Assembly (NCBI RefSeq): GCF_010093595.1
Contig: NW_022985477.1
Location: forward strand, 62,001-126,000
DNA: 64,000 nt
Direction: 5' to 3'
From: Mytilinidion resinicola
Taxonomy: Eukaryota > Ascomycota > Dothideomycetes > Mytilinidiales > Mytilinidiaceae
Below are positions 2-37,172 of this stretch, piece by piece. Each line of letters starts with the position of its first letter. Positions within the stretch are counted from its first letter, which is position 1. The translations under genes were made by a program, and so were the position numbers. The notes beneath the pieces are model-generated. The model worked only from the letters and a program-made list of their open reading frames with translations. It made no database searches and was not told where the DNA came from.

Positions 2-334
2 GGGCTAAAATGGGTGAACCTACTTCTCAGCGAGATCTTCCCGGGTAAGCTAGCAATGATGGATGATGTGGAGGCCTGGGTCCAGATCGCCTGTCCGCGG
101 CTGAGTATAGACTGGGGCTATGCGTTCGAGCGGCCGTTATTGAGTCCTTATGAAGCGCTTGTTGCTCTGGGGGTGAAGGAGGCGGGGTGGTTAATTGAGG
201 AAGAAGGAGGGACAATAGGAGAAGTGGGAGGTGGTAAAACAAACGGAGTGTATCCCATGGATTTCTACTCGAAAGAAGGACTAGGGAGAACGACGGAGGC
301 AGGAGCGGTGTTGGAGGTTGAGATCAAAGCGTAG
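2..334 (+). CDS. dph1: Diphthamide biosynthesis protein 1, C-terminal part (5' end outside window)
   Basis: This is the last part of Dph1, which with Dph2 forms the iron-sulfur enzyme that transfers the 3-amino-3-carboxypropyl group of SAM to the histidine of elongation factor 2, the first step of diphthamide synthesis. The frame is open from base 2 and reads [12 protein letters not shown], then [17 protein letters not shown], followed by [12 protein letters not shown]. These are the hallmark C-terminal motifs of the family, and the Cys in [10 protein letters not shown] is the third cluster-binding cysteine. The tail after it (glycine- and glutamate-rich, ending EVEIKA) is short and low in complexity, as is usual for fungal Dph1. 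Only about 110 of an expected 400 or more residues are present because the window starts inside the gene. Confidence 0.9.
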
Positions 335-16525: not shown

Positions 16526-17708
16526 ATGGCCTACAACTTCGTTCGCTCGTACATAGACACCTTCCGCGAGCGCACCGCGCAAATCTCCCACACCTCGACC
16601 TTCCGCAACACAGGCCAGATCACACCAGAGGAGTTCGTGCTTGCGGGCGACTTCCTCGTATTCAAGTTCCCCTCCTGGTCGTGGGCCGACGCCTCGCATC
16701 CCTCAAAGCGCGTCTCGTACCTCCCCGAGGGCAAGCAGTTCCTGGTCACACGAGGCGTGCCTTGCCATCGCCGGCTTGACGACAACTTCGCTGGAGAAGC
16801 AGGCCAGGACGAGACACTCGTGCGGGATGGCTTCGCGGCGGGAGAGGGCGAACCAGACGACGATGGCTGGCTGAGGACTGGGGGCATGGCAGCTAGCCAA
16901 GAGGCGAGGGTGCGCGATGTGCGGACGGTCGACGAGAGCGGGAATCTGGGAGAGGCGGGGGAGGAGGACGAGGAGATTCCCGACATGGAGGATGACGACG
17001 ACGAGGCCATCATCCGAGAGCCGCAGTCTGGCGCCGGGACTTCAGCGTAAGTGGCACTCTGAAAAGAACCTGAGGTTCACCGAAGGTATCTATTCTAACA
17101 GCACCCAGGCCGCTCCGAACATACACCCTCTACATATGCTACTCTGCTCACTACCGTACCCCGCGCCTCTACCTCTCCGGCTACGGACCGTCCTCCGAGC
17201 CACTCCGACCACAACAGATGATGGAGGATATTGTCGGCGACTACAAGGACAAGACAGTGACCATCGAGGACTTCCCTTTCTTCGAGGCGGCCATCAAGAC
17301 CGCCTCCGTGCACCCCTGTAAGCATGCGTCGGTCATGAAGGTCCTCCTCGACCGTGCAGATGCTGCCTTGAAGCTCCGACTAGCAAAGCTCAAGGCCGGA
17401 AAGGATGTCTCCAAACTGGACAGCGGCATGGAGGGCCTTGTCGACGACACAAAGCTCTTGAAACTGACAGAACGGGCTAAGCATGCGGAAGGCGAGGAAG
17501 GCGGCAAAGACAAGATGGGAGACGAATGGGAGGTCCTGGAGGAGGGAGCAGAGGACGACGAGGTTGCCATCCGCGTAGACCAGTACCTCGTCGTATTCCT
17601 TAAGTTCATGGCTAGGTACGTTCCACTCCCGTATAACATTTTACAAAATATCCTAACCTCCGTAGTGTCACGCCGGGCATCGAACACGACTTCACTATGG
17701 GGGTATAG
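16526..17708 (+). CDS. atg3: Autophagy-related protein 3, E2-like conjugating enzyme
   Basis: Three exons: 16526-17046, 17109-17615 and 17666-17708, giving 356 residues. The first intron begins GTAAGT; the second is 50 nt with a CCTAAC branch site. Atg3 takes Atg8 from Atg7 and conjugates it to phosphatidylethanolamine on the phagophore. Seen are: the N-terminal amphipathic region [35 protein letters not shown]; the acidic flexible loop ([14 protein letters not shown]); [20 protein letters not shown]; and the active-site [10 protein letters not shown] with catalytic Cys244. A second flexible, lysine-rich loop follows before [21 protein letters not shown]. Length and motif order match fungal Atg3, with no breaks. 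Confidence 0.96.
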
Positions 17709-33919: not shown

Positions 33920-34892
33920 CTCTGCTGATTCAAAATGGATGATTCAAGAGAAAGATATCTCGTTACGGTGGAAGAGTTGAGGTTCAAGTTCTTTCAATGT
34001 CCGAGGCCTCGGTACAGGGGAAGACGGATGTAGCGAAGCACTTGAAAGTGACGACAAGAACTTCAAAAGTGAGTATGTCAAGCGATAGATGCGAGGGGGT
34101 TGACGGTGAAGCTTGATATGTGAGTGGCAGAGCGGGACGTATACACGATAGCTTGGTGCGCTGTGTGCGCTGTCCATGTACTATATGAAATACCGTGAGA
34201 CACAGGCTGGTAGTATGCTCGTACCAGCCGATGTCGATCCGCGGCCGAGCAGGTGATGGAGCATCTGCACACCATGGCACCACCCGCAGCCCAAGCCCCG
34301 CATGGATTGGCGTGCCTCCCCGCTCCGAGAGCCTCGGAGGCTATTGGACAGGACTGCGCTGTATCCGTGACGTTTTCGTGTTTTGCCCCATGTTGTTTAG
34401 CCTACGAGCCTGCGCCAAAGTAGTGGCCGTCTGTGCCGTTAATCTGTGTCTCCATCCACGGTATTGAAGGTGTTCCATTGGGTTGGAAGCAGCTTCTGTG
34501 TAGCAGAGTTGATGGCGCCGCGGATGTGATCGAGTGATCTTTCATCATAATGCGGGGTGGATGTTCGACCGTTGGGTGACGGTGGGGTGAGAAAGGGGCT
34601 GTCACCTGGTTGGACAGGGCTGAGTTGTCCGGATCCTACCGACGGCATTGCCGGCTGCTCTGCTAACTTACCCGGCCGCATTTCCGACCGCATTTCCGAC
34701 CGCTGCAGTTCGGTCACCATGTTTGTTGCACGTGTCTCTCGAGTTCGAAGAGATATAGCAAAAATAGATCCATTACAGACCTGTCTAGTGCCATCATTCG
34801 CTAGGAAAGACGTGATGCAGTGGCGGTATTGTGATGCAGTGATTTAGGAAGCCAAAAAGTTGATGGCTTCTGCAAGAGAAAGAACAAAATTG
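33920..34892. other. Intergenic region without firmly supported gene
   Basis: About 970 bases. A 93-codon minus-strand frame at 34,439-34,720 looks partly protein-like (SLDHIRGAINSATQKLLPTQ) but has no recognised homology or splice context. It starts with a 13-bp direct repeat (GCATTTCCGACCG) near 34,678-34,702. Confidence 0.3.
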
Positions 34893-35029
34893 TAGTCCCA
34901 CTGGGGATCGAACCCAGGACCTTTCGCGTTGCTTTTAGGCAATGTGAGGCGAACTGGACGGAGAATTAGACCGTTTTGATGGAATGGAGGAGGATTCAGC
35001 TTACCGTCATACCACTAGACCATAGGACT
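34893..35029 (-). tRNA. tRNA-Val(CAC) with two insertions
   Basis: Read on the minus strand, the 7-bp acceptor stem AGTCCTA/TGGGACT closes with discriminator A at 34,893. The D arm is GTC-TAGTGGTAT-GAC, the anticodon stem is TTCGC/GCGAA around loop CTCACAC, and the T arm is CTGGG-TTCGATC-CCCAG. The anticodon is CAC (34,946-34,944). The A box TGGTCTAGTGG (35,022-35,012) and B box GGTTCGATCCC (34,914-34,904) match consensus. Between A37 and C38 lies a 14-nt canonical intron (34,942-34,929). Unexpectedly, a further 51 nt (35,004-34,954) separate G26 from the anticodon stem; they start GTAAGC and end CCAG. Without both inserts the tRNA is 72 nt, and its region GTTCGCCTCACACGCGAAAG is the usual tRNA-Val(CAC) sequence. 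A TTTT Pol III stop is at 34,889-34,886. Confidence 0.9.
34954..35004 (-). other. 51-nt GT...AG insertion in tRNA-Val
   Basis: It lies precisely between nucleotide 26 and the first base of the anticodon stem. Its ends are GTAAGC and CCAG, with a TCTAAT branch-like motif 12-17 nt before the 3' end. One base of junction ambiguity exists, because the flanking G can belong to either side. GACGG spanning the 5' junction (35,008-35,004) is complementary to CCGTC (34,961-34,957) near the 3' junction. It could therefore be a spliceosomal-type intron or a non-canonical tRNA intron. Confidence 0.75.
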
Positions 35030-37172
35030 TTGGTTGATAGCGAAAAATATTCAATATACAAAACTCTGTAGCGTGAAGGCAAAAAGCAATCCGAAGGGCG
35101 GTATCATGTGCCCCTTTCGCTTTTGAACACGCCGAACCGCCCTATGGACACCTAATATTGGCGGCGTACCAACGACTTTCCTGACAGAGAAACCAGGCCT
35201 AGCCATAAAATGCCATAAAAATGTGGGCTAGCCACCACATTCGCGCTCGATTTTAGAGGAAAACAGCTGAAATCTCGAACAGTAATGATATGTTTTAGTG
35301 TAGATATGCACCGAGGCGAGGTATCGAGCAAAACTGCTCTATTATCCCGAAATTCTGGTTTTGGTTGGTTCGGGTTCCCACTCGTTCATCACCATCATCC
35401 ATCATCAGTGCACACGTAAGGAAAGACTCCCTAGACGTATAACAGTAACCATGCCATTCAAGCTTTTTCACACAAATTTGTTGACGACGGAAGGCCGCCG
35501 TGTGAAGTGCTCCCAGACACTGAAAATATCAGAATGTGATGTGAAGTCCCGCGCGTTGTGATTCAGGCTTCCACGCGAGCTGCCTGCCCTCTCACTTTTC
35601 ACTCTGTCTGAAACCCTCCATATGTTCCAAGAAAACAGCTCACGAGAAAAGTTCATCATGCCATGATCTAGGTAGAACTTGATGCGAGTTTCACATTTGC
35701 ATCTTCATAAACAGCCTTCAGATGGACGTGGATGCTCTCTAGATTCTCCGGACTCCATAGGCCGACATTCTCAAGCGTCTTTCGCGTGAGAGAAATCGAT
35801 TGCATTTATGAAAACCAGACAGAGCGGCGACACTAGAATTGCTTTGCAGTCTTGCGCGGCCAATCTCCGAGAAGGGTAGGGCTACTATTTCAGTGCGGCA
35901 TTCTTGGCTGATACGATTTTGGATATTCCCAACCTTCTGTGCTGTCTCCCCTTGACGATCTCTAGAATCGATAATCTCTAGATTCTCTAGAGACACTAGT
36001 CCTACGTCTATGGCAAATAGAGTTATCGTGAATTGGCTGAGTGGTCTCAGAATCACTGGAACATTCAGTGCTTCGATGTCTGAGGGAGAAGCCATAGCTG
36101 CAATCGCATCTGACCGGCTCGCCGATATTAAGAAGACCGACTTTAAAGTCTCCAAGCATATCGGAAAGGAGAAGAGTGCTCGCGCCGGACTACTCCAAGC
36201 GCCATTGCCATCACAGCGAATCTCAGCGGTACGGAAATTGATATCACACCCCACAAAATAGGGCAAGATTACGCCTCAGACACGCCATGGTCGACACTGG
36301 AAAGATAAGAATGTCAAGAGTTTCAACATCGGCAACTTAATCCTTTCGGATGAAGTAATGCTTCCCAACGATCATGATAAGCTATGCATACGGTTAGGGG
36401 TAAAGGCCCATTGCAGCAATAGTACTGGGTCACAAGTCCGAGCACACCGATATACATTACTCCAGCCACACTCTTGCTCACTCGACATTACTGAAAGGAG
36501 CACCTTAGCTAGGAGGTATTATCGTCGTCAAAGCAGAGTCTAGTTTCCATTACGTTGGCCTTTACATCGTACTTAGAGTTTCAAAAGCCTATCGGGGTAC
36601 CCCAAGCAGTCGCAGGGAGTGCTCAAACCTATGCCTTGGTAATTTAATTCTTCAAGTCAGCTTCTGCCAGCAAGCGAACTACAACAAGCACCCTCATCTT
36701 CGTACTCTCAAAGCGCTCGCCGAAATGTCCCGCCAGAGCAAATTTCAGGAGAAAAGTGCATGCGCGATGCTACTGGGGTCTCTCGAAGTCCGGCGCGTTC
36801 CCTTCTCGAAGAAAGCCAATAGTGTCGAAGCTAAGATAGATGGCAAGACGAAAGACACATCTAGAACGATAGCGATGATTGGAAATACTCGACCGAACGG
36901 CGTTATTCAGAATGTAGCATCACCAGAGCTAGTTGCGCAAGAAGACGTAGACCAAATCATTGAGGATGTGACCGACGATGAATTGGATCTTGACGACGAC
37001 GACCCTGGCGCGCAGCCCCCAGGCAATAGAAGTGATCTATGCGCAACGACAGATATTTTTCGGCTGGCAAAGAAACCGCCAACAGGACATGATTCATAAA
37101 CGAACCACACCACACCACGGAACCCAGAATCTCCCCCATCTCCCACCCCTCCATCCAAACCCTTCCCGCATA
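35030..37172. other. Gene-poor region
   Basis: About 2.1 kb. Open frames at 35,739-36,266 (minus, 175 codons) and 36,725-37,099 (plus, 124 codons) have no recognisable motifs and are not called. TCTAGA-rich short palindromes occur at 35,957-35,998. Confidence 0.3.

Follow-up and report, generated by a model that had tools for sequence, protein, structure and literature searches.

Sequence evidence for spliceosomal-type introns in tRNA genes of Mytilinidion resinicola

Introduction

In the textbook view, introns of nuclear tRNA genes are removed by the tRNA endonuclease and those of mRNAs by the spliceosome. A tRNA-Val(CAC) gene of the ascomycete Mytilinidion resinicola raises the question of whether the two can meet in one gene, as it carries a canonical intron between bases 37 and 38 together with a 51-nt insert between bases 26 and 27 that looks like an mRNA intron. 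The window, that is the whole stretch analysed, comprises 64,000 nucleotides (contig NW_022985477.1, positions 62,001 to 126,000), and coordinates below refer to it. The initial annotation had left three readings of the insert open: a spliceosomal intron, an ectopic endonuclease-type intron and a dead gene copy. The first is now strongly supported by 24 like inserts in 19 other tRNA genes and by three paralogues with an empty site. Judged from sequence, the probability is about 0.87 that the Val insert represents a U2-type spliceosomal intron and belongs to a set of at least 25 spread over 20 tRNA genes. Searches of openly licensed PMC papers yielded no earlier account of tRNA genes with such introns.

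The tRNA-Val(CAC) gene

The gene lies on the minus strand at 34893..35029, a length of 137 nt with both introns included. Exon 1 (35005..35029, 25 nt) holds bases 1-26, with base 17 absent, and was delimited from the sequence and the deletion scan described below. It is followed by the 51-nt insert at 26/27 (34954..35004, GTAAGC...CCAG, placed by the blind deletion scan), by exon 2 (34943..34953, 11 nt, bases 27-37 with the anticodon CAC), by the canonical 14-nt 37/38 intron (34929..34942) and by exon 3 (34893..34928, 36 nt, bases 38-73). The two introns are confirmed where the initial annotation had placed them. Within the insert the branch-like TCTAAT contains CTAAT at 34965..34969, whose candidate branch A (34966) is base 13 when counted back from the intron's 3′ end. 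The B box (GGTTCGATCCC, 34904..34914) and a terminator-like TTTT for Pol III (34886..34889), which had both been described as intact, are present in the sequence. A TATA seen in the sequence and in a loose survey lies at 35055..35058, 26 to 29 nt 5′ of the gene. Removal of both introns leaves a tRNA of 72 nt with a cloverleaf score of 60, ordinary genes of the same genome scoring 53-65 where 53 is the cut-off.

The resemblance of the insert to introns of neighbouring protein genes also holds. Two ATG3 mRNA introns on the plus strand of the window share its layout, one of 62 nt at 17047..17108 (GTAAGT...TCTAAC...CCAG) and a second of 50 nt at 17616..17665 (GTACGT...CCTAAC...GTAG). They were located by tblastn with Atg3 of Lophium mytilinum (the nearest match of the window's Atg3 protein, at 86%), and their ends were set by splice pattern and reading frame. 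The window also encodes a DNA polymerase lambda-like protein that shows 93% identity to a Mytilinidion resinicola protein and 83% to that of Lophium mytilinum. By these proteins the genome falls within or close to the Mytilinidiales (Dothideomycetes).

Genome survey of interrupted and ordinary tRNA genes

The assembly surveyed comprises 47.1 Mb in 44 contigs. Candidate loci were taken from an Rfam scan, B-box patterns and similarity search and were read in part, so the numbers of interrupted genes and inserts are lower bounds. The whole-genome Rfam tRNA search scored 63 of 1387 candidates (37 rows), and B-box patterns were adopted for that reason; the first pattern covered 100 of its 324 places, and gapped variants were added later. 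Since the patterns demand a T-run and a B box in one piece, they overlook genes with a split B box, and L130, which has one, surfaced through the similarity search alone.

Among the loci read, at least 20 tRNA genes contain at least 25 extra inserts, one or two per gene, located in the D arm, anticodon arm, variable arm, T stem and T loop. Besides the window Val-CAC gene these are two Arg-ACG genes (L027 and L130), Arg-TCT (L037), Arg-CCG (L038 with L121), Ser-AGA (L033), two Ser-GCT genes (L036 and L122), Leu-AAG (L039 with L120), Leu-CAA (L041), Leu-TAA (L128), Thr-TGT (L102), Gly-GCC (L104), Ala-TGC (L025), Ala-CGC (L134), Asp-GTC (L132), Pro-TGG (L135), Pro-AGG (L136), Ile-AAT (L137) and L124, which is probably Ile-TAT, with a mismatch at 31-39 and an unsure identity. 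Canonical 37/38 introns are abundant in the same genome: by parse they occur in 40 of 41 distinct ordinary tRNA sequences (43 parsed rows, from which two were dropped as misparsed interrupted genes). Several interrupted genes have one as well, and with both kinds counted a single tRNA gene here can hold as many as three introns. In contrast to these canonical introns, the new inserts lie elsewhere in the tRNA, carry GT-AG and branch signals and fall within a narrow length range. Anticodons for which the loci read contain no gene in any form include Val-AAC, Ser-TGA, a second Met-CAT and perhaps Gly-TCC. Loci read and rejected as tRNA genes are L047, L060, L066, L103, L105, L106, L119, L125, L129, L131, L138 and the family L109/L111/L114/L116.

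Splice signals of the inserts

The 25 inserts are 49-57 nt long (mean 52.7). They begin and end with GT-AG in 22 cases, with GC-AG in one (CCAG|GCAAGT) and with GA-AG in two (GAAAGT). At the 5′ site G occupies position +1 in all 25 and +5 in 24, while A is found at +3 in 22 and at +4 in 20; GT-AG or GC-AG ends, as in U2-type introns with their extended 5′ site, are present in 23/25. A U2-type branch site, YTRAY whose A lies 10-15 bases from the intron's 3′ end, occurs in 24 inserts, and the stricter CTRAY in 22. When the interiors were shuffled (2000 trials, window 9-15), YTRAY appeared in a mean of 2.16 and a maximum of 9 of 25. The 40 canonical 37/38 introns served as a control: two are GT-AG-compatible, even with shifts of up to 3 allowed, and one has the branch motif.

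Two features count against the spliceosomal reading. The second insert of Thr-TGT is the exception for the branch site, having no motif near its 3′ end, and two Ser genes need the rare splice pair GA-AG. The latter inserts occupy the same T-stem site in L033 and L036, which have different anticodons, and start with GAAAGTG.

TTTTT is found in one insert of 25, that of the degenerate L128, and TTTT in two (shuffled mean 5.4). Allowing a loose match, a TATA-like motif is present at a distance of 25-65 nt upstream in 13 of the 14 interrupted genes with enough sequence and in 27 of the 41 ordinary ones. The scarcity of internal T-runs and the upstream TATA fit transcription through the introns by Pol III, without proving it.

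The inserts could be copies of one mobile intron family, an introner-like element striking tRNA genes. Such elements are known from Dothideomycetes, as stated in parts of PMC4457414, a paper whose main text does not mention tRNA, and the empty-site paralogues described below indicate gain or loss of inserts. A common mobile source is nevertheless very unlikely, as the 25 inserts are not mutual copies: their best pairwise identity is 0.62 and their average 0.47, whereas 200 shuffled pairs average 0.36 and reach at most 0.49, an excess that shared signals could explain. A 201-bp query containing the Val insert, the one insert of the 25 that was searched, matched only itself in the genome. An introner origin concerns the source of the inserts and is compatible with their removal by the spliceosome.

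Placement of the inserts

The position of the inserts was assessed by a blind scan in which all single deletions of 35-79 nt were ranked by a cloverleaf score ignorant of splice signals; the five genes with two introns were scanned with the other intron removed beforehand. For the Val gene, 2 of 2033 positive-scoring deletions are joint best, one base apart, and one of them is the GT-AG deletion, which upholds the earlier claim that removing the insert regains an exact tRNA. The assigned intron is among the top-scoring deletions for 19 of the 25 inserts. It falls one point below the best for the Gly insert and the second inserts of Leu-AAG and Ser-GCT L122, two points below for the first insert of Thr-TGT and the second of Leu-CAA, and three points below for the second insert of L124 (rank 233 of 3356). 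The assigned intron of Asp-GTC is top-scoring in a tie of 18. Placement in the D loop is loose, with 20-44 ties in four genes, and GT-AG is therefore weaker evidence there than at stem junctions. The spliced cloverleaf scores 58-65 in 19 of the 20 interrupted genes and 54 in L128; removal thus restores the tRNA product, the exact placement in loops not being unique.

By this assignment the inserts are located in the D stem, in the D loop, at 26/27, in the anticodon stem, in the variable arm, in the T stem and in the T loop. A site at 34/35, inside the anticodon of Leu-CAA, is less sure because that second insert scores two points off the best. The insert of L130 divides the B box (GGTT|CGACCCC), and introns also break the A box in L038 and L124. 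In L025 the end of the intron seems, by eye, to rebuild part of the A box.

Off-site introns are known from other lineages, and the inserts could resemble those of archaea or red algae, in which the tRNA splicing endonuclease recognizes and cuts bulge-helix-bulge (BHB) or related structures. As described in parts of PMC9602550, one tRNA of the red alga Cyanidioschyzon merolae can be interrupted in this way in several of its arms. The GACGG/CCGTC pairing across the Val insert, to which the initial annotation had drawn attention, does exist, but it is not unusual: BHB-type pairing as good or better is found in 22.5% of 200 shuffled inserts. The second insert of L124 has a full 4-bp central helix, matched by 4% of shuffles, and the corresponding value for Ser-GCT L036 is 5%. 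Over all 25 inserts, however, BHB-type junction pairing shows no excess (the median fraction of equal-or-better shuffles is 0.555), and a full central helix is found in 1/25. The absence of BHB does not settle the matter by itself: according to parts of PMC3978253, no defined BHB is formed by many of the ectopic tRNA introns in the nucleomorph of Guillardia theta. The inserts lie away from position 37/38, where tRNA endonuclease introns are expected and where alone the yeast enzyme is said to cut in a passage of PMC4033280, and they have splice-site and branch-site sequences in common. Cleavage by the endonuclease is accordingly very unlikely, and the spliceosomal reading is preferred for these inserts.

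Empty sites and selection on the mature tRNA

Three interrupted genes have a paralogue without the GT-AG insert. Gly-GCC L104 and its counterpart L019 differ at 0/71 mature positions, Ile-AAT L137 and L015 at 1/74, and Asp-GTC L132 and L062 at 6/72. Filled and empty tRNA sites are short, constrained and directly comparable, and are therefore informative on intron gain.

The inserts might instead be tolerated in dead tRNA copies whose spliced product is never made. L128 (Leu-TAA) looks degenerate, with G at base 8, a mismatch in the acceptor and TTTTT inside its insert, and for seven interrupted genes an uninterrupted gene sharing the anticodon is known here (Gly-GCC, Asp-GTC, Ile-AAT, Thr-TGT, Leu-AAG, Leu-CAA and Leu-TAA). 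Against this stand the non-random sequence of the inserts and the spliced cloverleafs, which, save for L128, score as ordinary genes without decayed stems or invariant bases. Base pairs were compared over seven gene pairs: the three empty-site pairs, the Arg-ACG pair, the Ser-GCT pair, Thr-TGT L011 with L102, its interrupted counterpart, and the Pro pair, in which both genes are interrupted. They differ at 33 base pairs, 31 of which are kept by two-sided changes and one by a change on one side (A-T to G-T), the remaining pair (13-21 of Thr) being lost. Changed pairs are kept in 8/8 cases between the Ser-GCT genes and in 3/3 between the Arg-ACG genes, all four of which are interrupted. With 32 of 33 changed pairs kept in diverged copies, the pattern is unlike that of decaying genes, and part of the change may predate the inserts.

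The supply of anticodons also argues against dead copies. In an incomplete census, interrupted genes alone were found for ten anticodons, namely Val-CAC, Arg-ACG, Arg-TCT, Arg-CCG, Ser-AGA, Ser-GCT, Ala-TGC, Ala-CGC, Pro-TGG and Pro-AGG, of which the first seven were covered by the similarity search for further copies. A joined query of eight mature tRNAs detected no uninterrupted copy of the seven tRNAs in question in the genome; it recovered the Gly empty-site copy and a second Arg-ACG gene, itself interrupted. The same query overlooked the divergent Ser-GCT L122, and the reach of the similarity search is therefore limited. Normal further tRNA-Val(CAC) genes, which the initial annotation had named as grounds for calling the locus a pseudogene, did not appear: in a non-exhaustive search the spliced 72-nt query matches this locus alone. 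A dead-copy origin is thus improbable for most of the genes, L128 excepted.

Detection by tRNA gene finders

Interrupted genes of this kind are poorly handled by existing programs. The default Rfam scan of the whole window reports no tRNA, and ARAGORN without introns finds nothing there. With lax filters, a 301-base region gives 36.6 bits for the Rfam tRNA family (RF00005, positions 1-71 of 71) across the 137-nt Val gene, the gathering score being 29. ARAGORN with introns switched on misreads the unspliced Val gene as Glu(ttc). Applied to all 20 unspliced interrupted genes it detects 10, four of them with the anticodon assigned here; after removal of the inserts these numbers rise to 19 and 15. 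For four spliced genes, including the Val gene of the window (called as Trp), a different anticodon is named because ARAGORN sets the 37/38 intron elsewhere. As its anticodon calls are unreliable here, a purpose-written cloverleaf scorer was used, which gives doubtful parses among ordinary genes too (L016, L100, L113, L123) and leaves L118 unclassified. According to parts of the tRNAscan-SE 2.0 paper (PMC8450103), eukaryotic tRNA genes are restricted to one intron. Since finders built for a single 37/38 intron misread or miss such genes, similar interrupted tRNA genes may be hidden in other fungal genomes.

A possible maturation pathway

The sequences make a strong case that many tRNA genes contain spliceosomal introns, and from it we infer that the spliceosome removes the inserts and the tRNA endonuclease the 37/38 introns. 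In the Val gene, Pol III would transcribe through both introns as far as the T-run. The nuclear spliceosome, with U1 at GTAAGC and U2 at CTAAT, would then excise the 51-nt intron as a lariat and join bases 26 and 27. With this intron gone the pre-tRNA would be able to fold, and the tRNA endonuclease and ligase would take out the 14-nt intron. The usual substrates of the spliceosome are capped Pol II transcripts, which counts against this scheme. If the spliceosome does remove the inserts, it must accept short, presumably uncapped Pol III transcripts with exon pieces of 10-89 nt, the range found within the interrupted genes, and splicing has to precede both folding and cleavage by the endonuclease.

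A second, spliceosome-dependent route of tRNA maturation is likely to exist in this fungus. Pol III pre-tRNAs would be its routine substrates, and translation would rely on it for about ten anticodons. Some of the introns concerned split the B box, as in Arg-ACG L130, and one, with less certainty, splits the anticodon of Leu-CAA L041. The three empty-site paralogues suggest that gains are continuing.

Comparison with other interrupted RNA genes

Nuclear rRNA genes of ascomycetes hold spliceosomal introns. Like the tRNA genes described here they are non-mRNA hosts, but theirs are Pol I transcripts and not tRNA. Closer in kind are the introns of fungal U6 snRNA genes, which are mRNA-type introns in a small structured Pol III RNA. 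They have been gained several times in fungi, to judge from the title of a reference within PMC5832005, and by analogy the introns in the tRNA genes were probably also gained separately. In contrast to tRNA, U6 is itself a part of the spliceosome, and the present case involves about 20 tRNA genes and many insertion sites. Three U6 copies found here align with Rfam U6 over its whole length and are intronless, and a fourth, cut at the 5′ end, is also without visible intron.

Introns of fungal U3 snoRNA, as described in parts of PMC5832005, share with the inserts the GT-AG ends, an RCTRAY branch site and presence or absence between paralogues, their host being a snoRNA and not a tRNA. The same source gives branch-to-acceptor distances of 6-36 nt for fungal introns. 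This 2017 survey names U3 and U6, in the passages concerned, as the sole small structured RNAs for which frequent interruption by an intron is known.

The atypical introns of C. merolae, the G. theta nucleomorph and archaea likewise lie off 37/38, and in C. merolae and archaea several can occur in one gene. Parts of PMC9602550, PMC3978253 and PMC4033280 describe BHB motifs in red-algal and archaeal tRNA introns off 37/38. In contrast to the C. merolae and archaeal introns, which depend on BHB and the tRNA endonuclease, the inserts described here show no excess of that motif.

Other Pol III-like loci

Reading of the candidate loci also brought to light several other elements. The U6 snRNA-like copies L101, L098, L127 and L133 (three identified by Rfam; L133, the 5′-cut one, by eye) each have a B-box sequence shortly downstream. 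The ACAGAGA region of L098 is altered, and this copy may be a pseudogene. L109, L111, L114 and L116 form a repeated Pol III-like family recognized by eye, with an alike TATA-containing upstream region, a TACTAACCAGCAGGAACCTTGCCCTAGTGG-like core, a downstream B box and a T-run; it has no Rfam match. L060 contains an inverted repeat at 1620-1700, the longest exact arm of which is 37 bases, directly 5′ of a B-box-like sequence and T-runs. Like G-rich units (AAAAAGGGGGTGTG...) adjoin the three tRNA genes L041, L100 and L128 at differing places, as seen by eye. A B-box site with a GGCGCCGGAC-like end after it recurs at C3:638895, C7:1163713, C13:944809, C21:732275 and C34:251192 and, judged from the matched letters, is possibly a tRNA-derived repeat.
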